This document shows positions 6,294 to 54,411 of a DNA stretch of 55,970 bases, in pieces. Made by a program: the position numbers and the translations under genes. The first letter of the stretch is position 1. Every line of letters begins with the position of its first letter. Under the pieces are notes generated by a model, which saw only the letters and a list, made by a program, of their open reading frames with translations, was not told the DNA's origin and made no database searches. This stretch comes from Pseudoselenomonas ruminantium (GTDB lineage Bacteria > Bacillota > Negativicutes > Selenomonadales > Selenomonadaceae), in contig CACZIV010000011.1 in the NCBI GenBank assembly GCA_902781305.1, positions 1 through 55,970 of the forward strand. The letters are read 5' to 3'.

Positions 6294-6323
6294 AATCCCC
6301 CACCTCCCCATTTTTTATTCGAC

Positions 6324-6357
6324 AAAAACCGCACACAACCTGCTGTCGTGTGCGGTT
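6324..6357 (-). terminator. Rho-independent terminator after the P-loop kinase gene
   Basis: AACCGCACAC (6327-6336) pairs perfectly with GTGTGCGGTT (6348-6357). On the minus strand the stem is followed by a short T tract. It closes the cbiC-to-kinase operon just before cas1. Confidence 0.85.
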
Positions 6358-6364
6358 CTTCCTA

Positions 6365-7117
6365 TCAGCACCGTATAAAATCGCCGTCTTCCACCATCTG
6401 CCATTGTTCATCAGCAGGGAACGTATGGTTTAAGATTCGTTCCACATTCAATCGGTCACTTGTTTCATAGAATTTAACGGCATCAGCCTTGGGCAGCCCG
6501 CCCTGAATCTTGCGTTGAATCAGGCGTTCCTGCAAAAGTTCCGGCGTTGCCTTGATGCTCAATGTGTAATCAGCCAGTTCCCGCAGGTCACGCCACTGCG
6601 GTTCGTCCAGCAGCAGCCAGTTGCCCTCGACCAGCAAAATATCGCCATTGACTTCGAGCGCATTAGCAATCGGATTATGAATCTTGCGGTCATAGACCGG
6701 CCAGAGGGATTTTCCCTGTTTTGCCTCCTGCATCTTTGCCCGCAAGCCTGTTACGTTAAAGGTTTCCGGCGCGCCCTTGATGGACCTCAGCGTTATCGTT
6801 TCGCCATCACGTTCTATCGTATGCGAATCCAAATACGCATTGGGATAATGAAAACCGTCCATGCCCAAAGACTGAATTGCCTGCATATCGTCCTGCTCTT
6901 TGGACAATTGCTCCAAAAACTGCAGCAGTGTCGATTTCCCCGTCGCCGGCGGTGCCGCTAGAAAAGCCATGATTTTGCACTGTTTCTGCTGCTGTATTTG
7001 CGTTAATTTCCGCAGCAAAGGTAAAAATAATTGCTTTACGGTATCTTCATTGTATTTTACCCGCTGCGGCAGGCCATTGATGACCATATCGTAAAATTTC
7101 CACGGCTTATTGCTCAT
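6365..7117 (-). CDS. P-loop nucleoside/nucleotide kinase family protein
   Basis: This 250-residue protein belongs to the uridine kinase/pantothenate kinase-like P-loop group (YggC/FrcK-like). It has a Walker A loop APPATGKST, an acidic GMDGFHYPN segment typical of this group, RSIKGAPETFN, YDRKIHNP and LLVEGNWLLL. The expected reaction is ATP-dependent phosphorylation of a small hydroxylated substrate; which one is not visible. The start at 7117 follows AGAGGTG; an upstream in-frame ATG lacks such a site. It lies 25 bases after cobS and ends at a terminator, so it is the last gene of the cobalamin operon. A role in the pathway (for example threonine or ribazole phosphorylation) is only a guess from position. 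Confidence 0.75.
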   Translation of the reverse strand: MSNKPWKFYDMVINGLPQRVKYNEDTVKQLFLPLLRKLTQIQQQKQCKIMAFLAAPPATGKSTLLQFLEQLSKEQDDMQAIQSLGMDGFHYPNAYLDSHTIERDGETITLRSIKGAPETFNVTGLRAKMQEAKQGKSLWPVYDRKIHNPIANALEVNGDILLVEGNWLLLDEPQWRDLRELADYTLSIKATPELLQERLIQRKIQGGLPKADAVKFYETSDRLNVERILNHTFPADEQWQMVEDGDFIRC

Positions 7118-22186: not shown

Positions 22187-23260
22187 TCACACTTCGCTGG
22201 CGGTCAGAATACATTCTACCTTGACCTCGCGATTTTTGTTCAAATCATAAAACTCGCCTTTGTCGGTCTGTACCACAGGCAGGGAACGAATCCGGCTTTC
22301 ATCCAAATAAACAATACGTCCTTTTTCCCCATTGGTCAGGCGTACCCAGTTGCCATTCAAGGCATGGGACAAACGCTTGATAAAGAGCACTCCATATTCC
22401 GTATCCAATTTGCCATCCAAGATATCATCATAAAGAATAGCAAACACATCAAAAGGCGAACGACGTTTGGCAAATACCCGGTCACTGGCCATGGCGTCAT
22501 AGATATCGAGAATAGCCAGTATCTTGCCAAAACGAGATATGTTTTCCTTTTTCAGTTTCAAGGGATAACCAGAACCATCACAGCGTTCATGGTGCTGTAT
22601 AACGCCCATCATAATATCCTGATTGGCATTCAACGTGGTTCTTGCCAACGTATCATGACCATACTGTGCATGCATCTTAACCTGCTCAAATTCCTCTGGC
22701 GTAAGTTTCCCCTGTTTTTCCAACACAGCAGGCGGAATCATCATCTTGCCGATATCCAGGAACAGCCCCGCAATGACCAAATTGTACTGGTCAAGCACCG
22801 ACATCCCCAACCAACGCCCCATTAATCCGGCCAAGATGCCCACATGAAGGCAATGATGAATCAGGTAAGAGCCTTCATGCTTCATATTATGAATCTGCGA
22901 TACCGCTTTCGCCCCATCACAGAGCTCGGTAAAATTCCGTTCATCCATAATATTCTGCAGGTCAGCAGCATTAAATTCCCCGCGTTGTACCAGCCCTTCA
23001 AACATACGTTCCAATTGCTGATAAACCGTGTTATAGCACACGATGTAAGCATCATCGAGCAAATTCTCCTTGCTGGGCATTGCCGGAGGTTCCTGCTCAT
23101 CAATATAAACCGAAAAAATCGGCCTGTCCAACAGACCATAAATCATTTCCTTGGTCAACATCGTTCCCGTACTAATAAGCGCATTACCCTGTTCATCCAC
23201 GATATCTCGTCCAACTGTCATCCCTGCCCGCAGGCTCTCTACTGCATATACCTTTAGCAC
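22187..23260 (-). CDS. HD-GYP domain protein with altered HD motif
   Basis: This 357-residue protein has an N-terminal part like that found before many HD-GYP domains (VESLRAGMTVGRDI) and a C-terminal HD-GYP domain (about 125-320). HD-GYP enzymes hydrolyse cyclic di-GMP using a two- or three-metal site. Here the GYP signature HHERCDGSGYP (223-233) and the later DIYDA are intact. The usual HDIGK reads LDIGK: Leu168 replaces the histidine of the HD doublet, a metal ligand. Reduced activity or a purely binding role is likely but unproven. The start is GTG after GAGGATGAGGG. A promoter lies upstream and a terminator downstream. Confidence 0.9.
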   Translation of the reverse strand: MLKVYAVESLRAGMTVGRDIVDEQGNALISTGTMLTKEMIYGLLDRPIFSVYIDEQEPPAMPSKENLLDDAYIVCYNTVYQQLERMFEGLVQRGEFNAADLQNIMDERNFTELCDGAKAVSQIHNMKHEGSYLIHHCLHVGILAGLMGRWLGMSVLDQYNLVIAGLFLDIGKMMIPPAVLEKQGKLTPEEFEQVKMHAQYGHDTLARTTLNANQDIMMGVIQHHERCDGSGYPLKLKKENISRFGKILAILDIYDAMASDRVFAKRRSPFDVFAILYDDILDGKLDTEYGVLFIKRLSHALNGNWVRLTNGEKGRIVYLDESRIRSLPVVQTDKGEFYDLNKNREVKVECILTASEV

Positions 23261-23318: not shown

Positions 23319-23371
23319 GCGCATTCTTATAAGTTTTACCATAAGAATTTAATATATTCGAAGCACAAGGC

Positions 23372-23452
23372 GAAGGGCAGGAGGGGAATAACTTTCGGCT
23401 GCTTAGACAAGCTTGTCAAACGCTGCCGAAAGCCATTCCCCTCCTGCCCTTC
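23372..23452. repeat. Hairpin A1 (copy A, module 1)
   Basis: GAAGGGCAGGAGGGGAAT (23372-23389) pairs without mismatch with 23435-23452, giving an 18-bp stem. Inside, TTTCGGC (23393-23399) pairs with GCCGAAA (23425-23431), and the apex is the perfect palindrome GACAAGCTTGTC (23406-23417). The outer arm is purine-rich and lacks a terminal T run. Confidence 0.95.
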
Positions 23453-23584
23453 TTAGTTTTAGCACATAAACTGCGTTATAATCTATCTTGCTGCTCACCC
23501 TAATATCACAGTGTACCTCCCGCAAATTGGTTTTATTACGTTTGGTCAGCTTATCTTTGCAATACAATCATAAGTACGCAATAA

Positions 23585-23665
23585 GCCCGCCCTGCTGGTG
23601 ATAGCTTTCCGCAGCGTTTGACAAGCCTGTCTAAGCGAAGGAAAGTTATTACCAGCAGGGCGGGC
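23585..23665. repeat. Hairpin A2 (copy A, module 2)
   Basis: GCCCGCCCTGCTGGT (23585-23599) pairs perfectly with 23651-23665. CTTTCC (23605-23610) pairs with GGAAAG (23640-23645). The core GCAGCGTTTGACAAGCCTGT is the reverse complement of the A1 core with few changes. It begins 31 bases past the tkt stop and might also stop transcription. Confidence 0.95.
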
Positions 23666-23695
23666 GTCTTATTTATCTCGATGTAAACCTAACGA

Positions 23696-25699
23696 TTATT
23701 TGTTGTCGCTAACAACCTTGCGCACAACCTCAGCCACATGGTCAACGGTGAAGCCGAACTTCTCGAAGAGCACAGCTGCCGGCGCAGATGCACCAAAGCC
23801 TTCCATGGAAACCGTAGCGCCATCAAGGCCTACATATTTACCCCAACCGAAATCGCTGAGTGCTTCCACAGCTACGCGGGCGCGAACCTTCTTCGGCAGA
23901 ACACTTTCTTTGTATTCAGCACTCTGCTGTTCGAAGAGATCCATGCAAGGCATGGAAACAACGCGGACATCCACGCCTTCACCAGCCAGTTTAGCCTGCG
24001 TATCCACAGCCAGGGAAACTTCCGAACCCGTAGCGATGATGATACCATCCATATTGGCAACATCTTTTGCTTCGGACACAACATAAGCACCCTTGAGAGC
24101 ATCCTTGGAGGAACCAGCCAGCTGCGGCAGGTTCTGACGAGTCAGTACCAAAGCCGTCGGCGTCTTTTCGCTGGTCACAGCCAGATACCAGCCTGCAGCC
24201 GTTTCCGTTGCATCTGCTGGACGGAATACGTTGACATTCGGCTGAGAACGGAGCATAGCCAGCTGTTCAATCGGTTCATGCGTCGGGCCGTCTTCGCCGA
24301 CACCAATGCTGTCATGCGTGAATACATAGGTCACAGGCAGGCCCATCAGCGCAGCCAAACGAACCATCGGTTTCGTGTAGTCGCTGAACACGAAGAACGT
24401 TGCTACATAATTCTTCAGACCGCCATGGAGGGTGATACCATTAGCCATAGCTGCCATAGCCAGTTCACGCACACCGAAGTGCAGGTTGCGGCCGGCATAG
24501 TTATCCTTGGAGAAATCGCCTGCATCCTTCATGTCTGTCTTGTTGGAAGGAGCAAGGTCAGCACTGCCGCCAAACAGGTTCGGCAGGAGATCTTTCAGGC
24601 GGTTAATCATCGTACCGGACAGAGCACGGGTAGCCTGTGCCTTGTCTTCATAAGCCCAGAAATCTTCGTTCTCAAGGAGAGCTTTCGCATCAACAGGAGC
24701 ATGGAACTTATCCCATTTAGCCTTGAGTTCCGGGAATTTAGCGCAGTAGTCAGCAAAGAGCTTATTCCAAGCTTCTTCTGCCTCAGCGCCCTTCTTGGCT
24801 TTTTCTTCATAATGGGCATAAACATCCTGCGGAATGTTGAAGGTCTTTTCCGGTTCCGGCCAGCCCAGATTTTCCTTGAGGGCCTTGACATTGTCAACGC
24901 CGAGCGGTTCGCCATGTGCGCTGGCTTTACCCTGTTTTGCCGGGCAGCCGTAACCAATCTGCGTCTTAACCGTGATGAAGGACGGATGTTCTTTGTCAGC
25001 CTTGGCCGCTTCAATAGCTTTGCCAATAGCTTCCAGATCATTGCCATCTTCTACAGTCAGCGTCTGGAAACCGAAAGCCTGCATACGTTTTTCCACATTT
25101 TCCGTGAAGGCAATATCCGTGCTGCCTTCGATGGAAATCTTATTGGAATCATAAAGCACAATCAGTTTGGAGAGGCCGAGCGTACCAGCCAGCGAGAAGG
25201 CTTCCGAAGAAATGCCTTCCATCATGCAGCCATCGCCGCCCAGAGCAAAGGTATAATGGTCAACCACATCATAGCCCGGCTTGTTGAATTCGGCAGCCAG
25301 ATGAGCTTCTGCCATCGCCATACCTACAGCCATACCCATACCTGCACCCAGCGGGCCGGTCGTGGCTTCAACACCTACCGTGTGACCATATTCCGGATGT
25401 CCCGGAGTCAGCGAACCATCCTGACGAAAGTTCTTCATATCATCCATGGTAAGGCCATAACCGAAGAAATGGAGCAGGGAATAAAGCAGCGTAGAACCAT
25501 GACCACCGGACAGGATGAAACGGTCGCGGTTAGCCCACTGCGGATTCTTCGGGTTGTGGTTCATGTGGTTAGCCCACAGTTCATAAGCCATAGCAGCGCT
25601 GCCAAGGGGCAGGCCGGGATGACCGGAATTTGCCTTCTGTACAGCATCAGCTGCCAGAACGCGGATAGCGTTTACACAAGTGGTATCCATGTTACTCAA
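23696..25699 (-). CDS. tkt: Transketolase
   Basis: Transketolase moves two-carbon ketol units between sugar phosphates in the pentose phosphate pathway using thiamine diphosphate. The protein of about 667 residues has the N-terminal ANSGHPGLPLGSAAMAYELW, the cofactor-binding GGDGCMMEGISSEAF, the pyrimidine-binding region and THDSIGVGEDGPTHEPIEQL. I favour a TTG start at 25699 because AAGGAG lies nine bases before it; ATG at 25690 is the alternative, and an open frame reaching 25792 has no such site. It is a stand-alone gene followed by the twin-hairpin element. Confidence 0.97.
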   Translation of the reverse strand: MSNMDTTCVNAIRVLAADAVQKANSGHPGLPLGSAAMAYELWANHMNHNPKNPQWANRDRFILSGGHGSTLLYSLLHFFGYGLTMDDMKNFRQDGSLTPGHPEYGHTVGVEATTGPLGAGMGMAVGMAMAEAHLAAEFNKPGYDVVDHYTFALGGDGCMMEGISSEAFSLAGTLGLSKLIVLYDSNKISIEGSTDIAFTENVEKRMQAFGFQTLTVEDGNDLEAIGKAIEAAKADKEHPSFITVKTQIGYGCPAKQGKASAHGEPLGVDNVKALKENLGWPEPEKTFNIPQDVYAHYEEKAKKGAEAEEAWNKLFADYCAKFPELKAKWDKFHAPVDAKALLENEDFWAYEDKAQATRALSGTMINRLKDLLPNLFGGSADLAPSNKTDMKDAGDFSKDNYAGRNLHFGVRELAMAAMANGITLHGGLKNYVATFFVFSDYTKPMVRLAALMGLPVTYVFTHDSIGVGEDGPTHEPIEQLAMLRSQPNVNVFRPADATETAAGWYLAVTSEKTPTALVLTRQNLPQLAGSSKDALKGAYVVSEAKDVANMDGIIIATGSEVSLAVDTQAKLAGEGVDVRVVSMPCMDLFEQQSAEYKESVLPKKVRARVAVEALSDFGWGKYVGLDGATVSMEGFGASAPAAVLFEKFGFTVDHVAEVVRKVVSDNK

Positions 25700-25854
25700 T
25701 GTGTATCTCTCCTTACCTAAAATAGTTTCGTTTACAAACATCATTCTACAAAAAAAAATGGAAAATGTACAGACCCTTTGTCCATTTTCCATTAATTTCT
25801 TTTATGTTTTTTTAAGAAACGATTATTGATAATTACGTTTTCAAACAATGAAAC

Positions 25855-51539: not shown

Positions 51540-53504
51540 TTATTTTGCCATCAGTTTTGCAACCTTATTGGCAAATTCCACCGGATTTTCCGGCAGGATG
51601 CCTTCGATAAGGAGTGCCTGCGTATAGAGAAGATCGCAGTAATCCTTGAAGTCAGCGCTGTCCTTGCCGCCATCATGGAGGCCCTGCAGACGCGTGAAGA
51701 GTTCATGGTGCGGGTTGATTTCGAGGATACGCTTAGCCTTGAACATCGGATTGTTCATTTCAGCAAAGGTCTGTTCCATAGAAAGGGACGGGCCAGCTTC
51801 GTCAGCAACGAGGCAGACTGCGCTGGATTTCAGGCGGGCAGACACCTTAACGTCAGCTACCTTTTCGCCCAAAGCTTCCTTGATGTCCTTCAAGAGGTCA
51901 TCATTCTTCTTCTGGATGTCTTCGGTTTCCTTCTTGACTTCCTGGCTTTCGGCATCGTCGAGGTCGAGGTCGCCGCGGCTGATGGAATGGAAGCTCTTGC
52001 CCTCGTATTCACGCAGGGTTTCAATGCAGAATTCGTCTACCGGGTCAAGGAGATAAAGCACTTCGAGGCCTTTGTCGCGCAGGGTTTCCATCTGCGGCAG
52101 GTGCTCGATGGTTTCCTTATCCTTCGCCGTTGCGTAATAGATTTTCTTCTGGCTTTCCGGCATACGCTCTACGTATTCCTTCAGCGTAACCAGCTTGCCT
52201 TCTTTGGAACTCATGAACAGCAGCAGGTCTTTGAGTTTATCAATGGTGTCACTGCCCGCATACATGCTGTTGTAAACGCCAATCTTGAGGGATTTGCCGA
52301 ATTCGTTCCAGAACTTCTCATAATCCTCACGCTTGTTCTTGAGCTTGCGGGCCAGGGACTTGAGGATGTTCTTTTCAAGAGCCTTGCCGATAACCTTGAG
52401 TTCGCGGCTCTGCTGCAAAAGTTCACGGGAGATATTGAGGGACAGGTCAGGAGAATCCACAAGGCCCTTCATAAAGCGCAGGTAATCCGGCAGCAGGTCC
52501 TTGCACTTGTCCATGATGAACACATGGCGGGAATAGAGCTGTACGCCCGGTTCGTAATCCGTATGATAGAGATTGAACGGAGCGCGGGAAGGAATGGCAA
52601 GCAGGGCCGTGTATTCCACGGATCCTTCAGCCTTGGTATGGAATACTTCCATGGGCTTTTCCCATTCATGGAACTGATTCTTGAAGAACTCGTCGTATTC
52701 TTCCTCTTTGATATCGGACTTGTTCTTCGTCCAGAGCGGCTGCATGGAGTTCAGCGTGCGGCATTCGATGGTCTTAACCTTCTCAGCGCCTTCGATTTCC
52801 TTGCCTTCATCATCCTTCGGCGTTTCTTCATGCTCGAAGTTCATCTTGATGGGGTAACGCACATAGTCGCTGTACTTCTTGACCAGACGTTCCAACGTGT
52901 AGTTTTCCGTGAAGTCATTTTCGGCGTCATCACCGAAGAATTCCTTGCCCAGCGTAATCGTGATGCTCGTACCGCGCTTGTCACGGCTGCATTCTTCAAT
53001 GCTGTAAGAACCGTCACCTGTGGATTCCCAACGCGTACCTTCCGTTTCGCCTGCCTTACGGGTTTCGATAACCACCTTTTCAGCTACCATGAACGCGGAG
53101 TAGAAACCTACACCGAACTGACCGATAAGTTCCTTATCGGTATTGCCCTCAGCGCCCTCGCTGGCTTCCTTGGCCTTCTTGAGCTGTTCCATGAATGCCT
53201 TGGTGCCGGATTTAGCGATGGTGCCGATGTTTTCGATAACTTCCTGACGGCTCATGCCGATACCATTATCGCGAATGGTCAGCGTATGGTTTTCCTTATC
53301 CGGTTCGAGGAAAATTTCGTAGCTGTCGTCCCCTTCGAGAATATCACGATTCGTCAGGCTGGCAAAATGCACCTTGTCAATCGCATCGGATGCGTTGGAG
53401 ATAAGCTCCCGCAGGAAAATCTCGTGATTCGTGTAGATGGAGTGAATCATGAGGTCTAACAGTTGTTTGGTTTCCGCTTGAAATTCATGGGTTTCTTTAG
53501 CCAT
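51540..53504 (-). CDS. htpG: Chaperone HtpG (Hsp90)
   Basis: HtpG is the bacterial Hsp90, an ATP-driven dimeric chaperone in the cytoplasm. The 654-residue protein has the N-terminal GHKL ATPase with LRELISNASDAIDK, IRDNGIGMSRQEVIENIGTI and GQFGVGFYSAFMVAEKV, a middle domain with PFNLYHTDYEPGVQLY and VDSPDLSLNISRELLQ, and a C-terminal dimerisation part. A consensus promoter and a perfect CIRCE operator lie upstream, so it should be repressed by HrcA. A terminator follows. Confidence 0.98.
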   Translation of the reverse strand: MAKETHEFQAETKQLLDLMIHSIYTNHEIFLRELISNASDAIDKVHFASLTNRDILEGDDSYEIFLEPDKENHTLTIRDNGIGMSRQEVIENIGTIAKSGTKAFMEQLKKAKEASEGAEGNTDKELIGQFGVGFYSAFMVAEKVVIETRKAGETEGTRWESTGDGSYSIEECSRDKRGTSITITLGKEFFGDDAENDFTENYTLERLVKKYSDYVRYPIKMNFEHEETPKDDEGKEIEGAEKVKTIECRTLNSMQPLWTKNKSDIKEEEYDEFFKNQFHEWEKPMEVFHTKAEGSVEYTALLAIPSRAPFNLYHTDYEPGVQLYSRHVFIMDKCKDLLPDYLRFMKGLVDSPDLSLNISRELLQQSRELKVIGKALEKNILKSLARKLKNKREDYEKFWNEFGKSLKIGVYNSMYAGSDTIDKLKDLLLFMSSKEGKLVTLKEYVERMPESQKKIYYATAKDKETIEHLPQMETLRDKGLEVLYLLDPVDEFCIETLREYEGKSFHSISRGDLDLDDAESQEVKKETEDIQKKNDDLLKDIKEALGEKVADVKVSARLKSSAVCLVADEAGPSLSMEQTFAEMNNPMFKAKRILEINPHHELFTRLQGLHDGGKDSADFKDYCDLLYTQALLIEGILPENPVEFANKVAKLMAK

Positions 53505-53549: not shown

Positions 53550-53576
53550 TTAGCACTCTTTTGTGCTGAGTGCTAA
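53550..53576 (-). promoter_or_regulatory. CIRCE operator (HrcA binding site) of htpG
   Basis: TTAGCACTC (53550-53558), nine spacer bases and GAGTGCTAA (53568-53576) match the CIRCE consensus without mismatch. It lies just downstream of the -10 box and about 45 bases before the htpG ATG, where HrcA would block transcription. Confidence 0.97.
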
Positions 53577-53588
53577 CGTACATTGATT

Positions 53589-53617: not shown

Positions 53618-53658
53618 ACATGTTTACATCGGTTCGAGCCATAATTCGAGCCCAAGAC

Positions 53659-53741
53659 GGAGGGCGGGGGAGGCAATAACTTTCGTCTGCTTATGCAGGC
53701 TTGCCTAACGCTGCCGAAAGTCATCGCCTCCCCCGCCCTCC
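53659..53741. repeat. Hairpin B1 (copy B, module 1)
   Basis: GGAGGGCGGGGGAGGC (53659-53674) pairs perfectly with GCCTCCCCCGCCCTCC (53726-53741). Inside, TTTCG (53681-53685) pairs with CGAAA (53715-53719). The apex is a variant of the GACAAGCTTGTC palindrome with AGGC/GCCT pairing. Confidence 0.95.
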
Positions 53742-53796
53742 TCACTGCCAACATGACCTGAACCTTCCGATTAATTCCCCCATATATGCACAATAA

Positions 53797-53878
53797 GCCC
53801 GTGGGAACTGGTGATGTTTTCCGCAGCTTTTGACAAGCTTGTCTATGGCGAAGGAAAATATTACCAGTTCCCACGGGC
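53797..53878. repeat. Hairpin B2 (copy B, module 2)
   Basis: GCCCGTGGGAACTGGT (53797-53812) pairs perfectly with ACCAGTTCCCACGGGC (53863-53878). TTTTCC (53817-53822) pairs with GGAAAA (53853-53858). The apex GACAAGCTTGTC (53832-53843) is identical to that of A1. Confidence 0.95.
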
Positions 53879-53913
53879 GCCTTTATACTTCGATGTACTC
53901 GAACGACAACTAT

Positions 53914-54276
53914 TTATTCAAAAGCTCCTCCATTAGCCAGCCAACGCAGAGCCTCCCGTTCGCTGAGGTTAACTCCTTCTATCTGAATGATATTCTGGCT
54001 GGAGCCATTATGCATATCCTTGATGCGGATACGGCCAACTTCCGTCAGATAATCACCATTCAGCGCTTCAATGACATCATGATTTTCCAACTGCGCATCC
54101 ACACGGAACTCAATTACCGAAGCCACCGAATATCCTTCACTGGTATAAATGACGATTTTCTGCCCGTTATCCGTATTAATCAGCCCATAAATACTGCCTC
54201 CAGAAACATGCGCAAAGCACATGCTGGAAAGAGCAATCATCATAGCAGCCACCACAGTCAAAATACGCGTTTTCAT
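53914..54276 (-). CDS. Small secreted protein of unknown function
   Basis: The 120-residue protein begins with a typical signal peptide (MKTRILTVVAAMMIALSSMC, cleavage likely after CFA). The mature part is beta-rich, with YGLINTDNGQKIVIYTSEGY and VGRIRIKDMHNGSSQNIIQI. I recognise no family. ATG at 54276 follows GGAGGAATTGACT. A single-gene unit is likely. Copy B of the twin-hairpin element begins 16 bases past its stop and may end its transcript. Confidence 0.8.
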   Translation of the reverse strand: MKTRILTVVAAMMIALSSMCFAHVSGGSIYGLINTDNGQKIVIYTSEGYSVASVIEFRVDAQLENHDVIEALNGDYLTEVGRIRIKDMHNGSSQNIIQIEGVNLSEREALRWLANGGAFE

Positions 54277-54411
54277 AGTCAATTCCTCCTCATACTTTGT
54301 CTCTATTACACCGCAAGCTATATCTTGCGAGCCCTTACTCCGCAGTTCTTAACTGCTTACACTATAACATACGCATGAGAAGAAAAAGCATTACAGGAAA
54401 TTATAAAATTT

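Follow-up and report, generated by a model that had tools for sequence, protein, structure and literature searches.

Two long hairpins lie side by side in the gap between the transketolase gene tkt (23696..25792, minus strand; Pfam PF00456 and others) and a gene encoding an HD-domain protein (22187..23260, minus strand; Pfam HD_5, PF13487), in the 55,970-nt stretch of Pseudoselenomonas ruminantium DNA analysed here (hereafter the window), and they raise the question of what kind of element they are and what they do where they stand. A first-pass annotation of this DNA had described perfect stems of 18 and 15 bp with cores reverse-complementary to one another and a second occurrence of the same architecture about 30 kb away, and all of these features are present. 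The first stem is an inverted repeat at 23372-23402/23422-23452, with 31-nt arms that are 90% complementary and a longest perfect run of 18 bp, and the second one at 23580-23610/23640-23670, again with 31-nt arms (87% complementary, longest perfect run 15 bp), while the two cores (23384-23436 and 23601-23653) are 85% reverse-complementary to each other.

Both elements are predicted to fold as hairpins, and a covariance model assigns a strand to each. The one facing the 5′ end of the HD-domain gene is an A-type element (23366..23458) whose canonical strand is the minus strand (92.4 bits, vs. 51.3 on the plus strand), a diverged subtype with polypurine/polypyrimidine arms; its outer flank, which is 3′ on the canonical minus strand and reads TTCGAAGCACAAGGC on the plus strand, occupies 23357..23371, as judged from the sequence by eye against other A copies. 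The hairpin facing the 3′ end of tkt is a B-type element (23579..23671; 101.7 bits on the canonical plus strand vs. 53.2 on the minus strand; E 4e-22 in the whole genome), for which a fold of -65.7 kcal/mol was predicted with flanks included. Its conserved 3′ flank, of the type GYCTTAgcacatcgATGTAAacc (23666..23689, plus strand), ends 6 nt before the tkt stop codon, and the linker separating it from the A element (23459..23578) resembles the 5′ flank of other copies at its B-side end alone. The second occurrence consists of an A-type element at 53653..53747 (minus strand, 86.2 bits) and a B-type element at 53791..53884 (plus strand, 89.7 bits), the latter ending about 30 nt before the stop codon of an ORF (53914-54282, minus strand) with no Pfam match. 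All four elements exceed chance expectation, with model E-values from 4e-22 to 4e-18 per genome; three of them are part of the 50-copy alignment behind the model, and the one outside it (53653-53747) reaches E 3.7e-18. On the other side of the second pair lies an HSP90 gene (51540-53504, minus strand; PF00183), upstream of which we observed an inverted repeat, TTAGCACTC-N9-GAGTGCTAA, at approximately 53553-53579. This repeat, which resembles the CIRCE operator, occurs in 21 of the 23 loci compared within the genus; the remaining two had matched the query elsewhere along its length.

The hairpins are far from unique to the window. The 354-base locus gave 125 blastn matches in its own genome (2.79 Mb in 121 contigs), a number that includes the matches of the palindromes to their own opposite strand, and the covariance model, trained on 50 B-oriented copies, matched 149 of its best 150 candidates there; after subtraction of 10 hits to the other strand of the same place, at least about 139 sites remain, partial ones included. 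Dozens of copies, with covariation in the arms, are what the first-pass annotation had named as support for a new structured family. The exact core was found in at least 96 stretches of GTDB contigs, all from Selenomonas ruminantium among the matches listed. We further surveyed 189 genomes of the genus and the family, under stricter filters than in the own-genome search and with the best 22 candidates scored in each: at E 1e-8 the model matched in 12 of 22 genomes of the same genus and in none of the 167 genomes from other genera of the family. The exact core was not found in viral contigs, nor did phages or plasmids give any blastn match to the element, and a phage or plasmid origin was ruled out on this basis. 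Rfam returned no match at gathering thresholds over the whole window, and between 23300 and 23720, at E up to 1, it returned ten hits, all to microRNA models and all below threshold; a known RNA family was thereby rejected, an Rfam hit being among the outcomes that the first-pass annotation had named as refuting a new one. The literature searched, with most subscription papers outside its coverage, held no description of the family in the accessible text (PMC3733652, PMC3049150, PMC2229807, PMC12306157, PMC10969869), nor the combination of long covarying stems around a conserved core, polar arrays and placement at stop codons in antisense orientation. The two hairpins are members of an apparently undescribed family of palindromic interspersed repeats of about 120 bases.

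Each unit comprises a hairpin of about 83 nt between a 5′ flank ending in AcgcACTAAG and the 3′ flank given above. The stem counts mostly 25-27 pairs; its base (GCCCG/CGGGC in B), its inner part and the apical hairpin are conserved, whereas the middle of both arms differs between copies in sequence and in length. The arms had been described as locus-specific, which holds for their middle but not for the base, the inner stem or about 20 nt of flank, all of which are conserved across copies. Since the base, inner arm and flank of B are shared between loci, an origin in which the element inserted within a host terminator loop, the arms descending from that terminator, was rejected. In the search for an IS with the same ends, an 18-nt pattern drawn from the 3′ flank, with as many as three mismatches allowed, matched 41 places in the genome (none for the reversed-pattern control); by their coordinates, most of these adjoin model hits, and a few (e.g., C95:2206) lie elsewhere. 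Distant carriers have different apical sequences in which pairing is kept, as in GACGC/GCGTC, and in genome G152 a B element (L331, approximately 6321-6381) lacks the conserved apical core with its arms still paired.

The twin-hairpin form by which the element had been characterised is real at this locus and proved to be just one form among several. Across 133 loci, 321 copies are organised in 155 arrays of one to six units, among them single units (59), two units in tandem (38) and an inverted unit followed by two others (18). These arrays are polar: neighbours in opposite orientation are divergent at 42 junctions and convergent at one, and of 123 neighbour pairs in the same direction, 107 are spaced 105-136 nt from start to start. 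The A query is the best match to 16 copies in the own genome, each of which is the inverted unit of its own array, and in a few arrays a B-like unit takes that position; A is a subtype of B that is inverted and has diverged. This relation, the polar tandem arrays, the detection in one genus only and the placement at gene 3′ ends go beyond what the first-pass annotation had proposed. Unit number varies at a single orthologous locus in four genomes: L044 has three B units and no inverted one, and an inverted unit accompanies three B units in L106, four in L121 and five in L136. Presence or absence of whole and partial units is directly visible in the alignments. At another locus (L115:6724-7215) a DUF3990 gene (PF13151, weak similarity to PARP) lies between two B elements, which in the orthologous locus L120 are matched by a pair about 100 nt apart.

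Differences between the arms of the copies had been reported as matched on the opposite arm, and this extends to the 50-copy alignment, in which 97.4% of the cells are standard pairs vs. 82.7% in shuffles. Double-changed cells number 166 against 39 in the shuffles (none of 500 as high) and affect 16 of the 24 pairs, one of the three apical pairs among them; slid controls are 37-52% paired. The covariation score of 0.452 likewise exceeds the shuffled value of 0.169 (0/500 as high) and the 0.07-0.12 of slid controls, in a test that favours the structure because the latter was derived from the same alignment. Stems were also parsed in 239 of 240 distinct, nearly full-length copies, and in the 225 with at least 18 pairs the outer 12 pairs are 93.7% Watson-Crick, vs. 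48.3% when the 3′ arms are permuted among copies. Close orthologues tell how such pairing evolves: in 81 element pairs with a mean identity of 93.8% (only those with at least 86% identity in hairpin and flank were kept), changes in the outer arms are one-sided in 51 cases and two-sided in 14, about 1.5 of the latter being expected if changes were independent, and 12 of the 14 lead from one Watson-Crick pair to another. At the tkt locus, one pair of the A stem is A-T in G000 and G146 and G-C in G155 and G153; in G153 the arms of the B hairpin are quite different and the tkt-side flank is the same. Selection on a folded form and a copying process that regenerates palindromes had both been proposed. 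The data support a constraint on the folded form with real compensatory changes, and, as one-sided changes outnumber two-sided ones, ordinary compensatory evolution is enough and palindrome-regenerating copying is not required.

The placement of the elements with respect to genes is strongly biased. In the loci of the own genome, the GTDB contigs and G147, 146 stop codons and 17 start codons lie within 60 nt of an element, identical contexts being counted once, genes being taken from a simple ORF caller and orthologues being included, so that counts across loci are not independent. The canonical 3′ end is directed toward the stop codon in 120 of the 146 cases and the other end in 26, hence the elements are mostly antisense to the gene whose stop they follow. 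The 120 stop-facing elements lie at a median of 24 nt from the stop codon (109 of them at 13-36 nt), and classic terminator stems in the same loci begin at a median of 17 nt past the stop (n = 199). A separate count of flanking genes found a converging gene on the right of 94 out of 119 arrays; the other 36 of the 155, with no clear flanking ORF or overlapping a long ORF, were left out, and for the second array of the window the caller picked a gene 529 nt away instead of the ORF at 53914-54282.

At tkt, whose 3′ end was located in all 22 genomes of the genus, the element can be compared with what stands in its place elsewhere. A classic intrinsic terminator lies within 110 nt of the stop codon in 13 of 14 element-free genomes and in none of the seven element-bearing genomes scored, the eighth (G154) being cut by a contig end. 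The fourteenth element-free genome, G149, carries there a long element-like hairpin (L183) with B-like arms and a different loop, possibly a relative or ancestor of the family. At this locus the element thus occupies the place that an ordinary terminator takes in relatives. The detector accepts loops of 3-10 nt and stems of up to 15 pairs, so that the element itself cannot be called a terminator by it. In bulk, a classic terminator was found within 80 nt at 4 of the 151 gene ends that have an element no more than 60 nt away, at 5 of the 39 with an element 60-400 nt away and at 104 of 424 others for which the next gene lies 90 nt or more away, a deficit due in part to the space that the element occupies. 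The comparison between genomes concerns the tkt locus only; the second locus of the window was unusable for it, since the match in most relatives was limited to the part of the query toward HSP90. A tract of at least four T in the 6 nt past the stem was found on the gene strand of 84 of 221 elements and on the canonical strand of 21, that is, the U-tract of the element is weak, and better on the gene strand than on the canonical one.

Our preferred explanation, held with moderate confidence, is that the element is a non-autonomous palindromic interspersed repeat belonging to a single Selenomonas genus, and that the upstream gene has come to use its hairpin as a 3′-end structure. Co-option at gene ends is supported by the position of the elements and by one comparative locus, tkt, from which we infer that they may act in termination. 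A-B composites, with their canonical 3′ ends outward, would have spread by transposition in trans, and B units would have been duplicated in tandem and deleted after insertion. The GC-rich hairpin, with its weak gene-strand U-tract, might end or protect the upstream transcript, and insertions at terminators would for that reason be kept. The middle of the stem would need pairing and no set sequence, which would lead to compensatory drift, perhaps aided by conversion between copies. Against co-option count the wobble asymmetry of the inner stem described below, which favours the strand antisense to the gene and not the terminator strand, the 26 of 146 near-stop elements that face the other way and the weakness of the U-tract.

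Transposition itself is suggested by the dispersal of the family and by one clean empty locus. In 681 flank comparisons, 60 sites were empty, and the only two clean ones belong to the same locus, where two relatives lack the three-element array of L024/L280 with nearly flush borders (L280 against L129 and L269, the latter in G147); a possible repeat of 5-6 bp borders this array. The other empty-site candidates were set aside because of diverged flanks, other inserts or element debris. Over 55 arrays we found no excess of target-site duplication, the longest shared word averaging 5.2 vs. 5.26 after permutation. In the complete genome of G147, three stretches of about 600-700 nt (L241:2356-2991, L259:2256-2960 and L258:8821-9530) contain several nested long inverted repeats and occupy places where relatives carry the element, the one in L241 lying between tRNA genes; apart from these tRNAs they gave no Rfam match at gathering scores.

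The alternative that survives best, which we consider possible but on the whole unlikely, is a purely selfish palindromic repeat that persists past stop codons as the least harmful site, its hairpin doing nothing for the gene. Its detection in a single genus, the patchy occurrence within that genus and the variability of the arrays are in its favour, and in the accessible text of PMC3049150 the pneumococcal repeats BOX, RUP and SPRITE are read by the authors as parasitic. Selfishness alone, however, does not explain the strong covariation of the arms, leaves unaccounted for the tight spacing from the stop codon (109/120 at 13-36 nt) and the orientation bias of 120 to 26, and does not account for the absence of the terminator at tkt.

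Rather doubtful is the idea of a structured RNA in its own right, transcribed from the canonical strand and antisense to the 3′ end of the neighbouring gene. It would fit the inner stem, where mismatches are skewed to G.U on the canonical strand (359 vs. 16 A.C) and two wobble positions stand out with G.U in 41 and 28 of the 50 copies, as well as the one-sided changes among orthologues, where Watson-Crick to G.U transitions exceed those to A.C (22 to 14 in the outer arms, 26 to 10 in the inner stem); the paired alternative apical sequences of distant carriers and the double changes in one of three apical pairs point the same way. The outer variable arms, on the other hand, show no strand asymmetry (54 G.U, 53 A.C), so that they give no support to reading the arms as RNA alone, the 5′ flank has no common promoter by eye, and the wobbles may be inherited sequence.

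A shade weaker in our estimate is a mobile terminator, that is, an element that would transpose through its canonical-strand hairpin, as ssDNA or RNA, specifically into or beside Rho-independent terminators, replace them and renew its paired arms while copying. If it were true, one selfish hairpin family would be progressively taking over the gene ends of a genome.

We regard as improbable a DNA-level element, a cruciform or single-strand hairpin involved in protein binding or chromosome organisation whose arms are kept identical by template switching. The strand-symmetric mismatches of the outer arms would agree with it, as would three adjacent double changes between the orthologues L027 and L052 and the canonical strand, which on the complete chromosome of G147 mostly follows the replichore as defined by GC skew; against it, one-sided changes dominate close orthologues (51 to 14), conserved G.T mismatches of the inner stem stay unrepaired, and the replichore pattern may be explained by gene orientation alone. 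Close to refuted, and rejected here, is a REP/REPIN system with a RAYT, a Y1 transposase, as its mover, to which inverted palindrome pairs at gene 3′ ends and the existence of Y1_Tnp proteins in the genus would be suited, since Y1_Tnp, the sole transposase family searched (own genome and genus), does not track the element, being absent from 4 of 12 carrier genomes (G144, G147, G155, G156) and found, in part as partial hits, in 5 of 10 non-carriers (G143, G145, G160, G161, G163), and the stems, mostly of 25-27 pairs, carry no GTAG tag.

Under the preferred reading as a co-opted repeat, the element is of a kind already known, the small palindromic repeats interspersed in genomes, to which ERIC, REP, BOX and SPRITE belong, as these are described in the accessible portions of the papers cited. 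SPRITE is likewise a small interspersed repeat whose hairpin resembles a terminator and which is found mainly at the 3′ ends of genes, and its authors suggest that it may have been co-opted for termination; its duplex is of 18 bp, with a long U-rich tract and AT-rich composition (PMC3049150), whereas the element described here has a GC-rich stem, a conserved apical core, a weak U-tract, polar arrays and covarying arms. BOX of Streptococcus pneumoniae is also a modular, strain-variable array, with a variable number of tandem boxB modules between distinct end modules (PMC3049150), unlike which each module here is a complete long hairpin; the layout here, an inverted unit, usually A, followed by tandem B units, is partly similar, with no third end module and with A homologous to B. 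The 127-bp ERIC/IRU repeats of enterobacteria share the length class, the long stem-loop and the intergenic site, and an effect on the stability of co-transcribed mRNA is reported for them (PMC2229807); the present element differs in its tandem polar arrays and in having no blastn similarity to E. coli genomes (354-base locus, 20,395 records, E 1e-5).

REP, BIME and REPIN sequences, too, are extragenic palindromes downstream of genes, also in inverted pairs, but their stems measure 5-13 bp in the GTAG type and 8-9 bp in the CGTC type, according to the accessible part of PMC3733652. The long stems, the flanks (TAAG and GYCTT instead of a GTAG tag) and the missing link to a RAYT set the element apart from the former; as for the latter, defined by a stem of 8-9 bp, a loop of 4-5, a CGTC, TGTC or CCTC tag and a CCA-like tail, some copies have CGTC or CGCC just past the stem, and stem length and the rest differ. 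Regarding MITEs, the composite is bounded by the canonical 3′ flanks of its A and B units, which by eye are alike yet diverged, and the 55 arrays show no target-site duplication of the kind expected. Rho-independent terminators share the position past the stop codon, and at tkt the element occupies their place; it differs from them in its 83-nt hairpin, sparse U-tract and interspersed family sequence.

The tkt locus places element-free and element-bearing genomes side by side, with a repeat in the place of the ordinary terminator at one conserved gene, in a genus for which the accessible part of the literature searched holds no such repeats. The long stems of closely related orthologous copies, moreover, differ by both one-sided and compensatory changes, so that it can be tested directly whether paired arms evolve through RNA, through DNA or by templated copying. 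In these genomes the element may explain gene ends with no recognisable terminator, and arrays of up to six hairpins may hamper genome assembly. Along the chromosome of G147, finally, element sites look sparser by eye around the GC-skew terminus (approximately 1.5-2.1 Mb) than near the origin (approximately 0.52 Mb).
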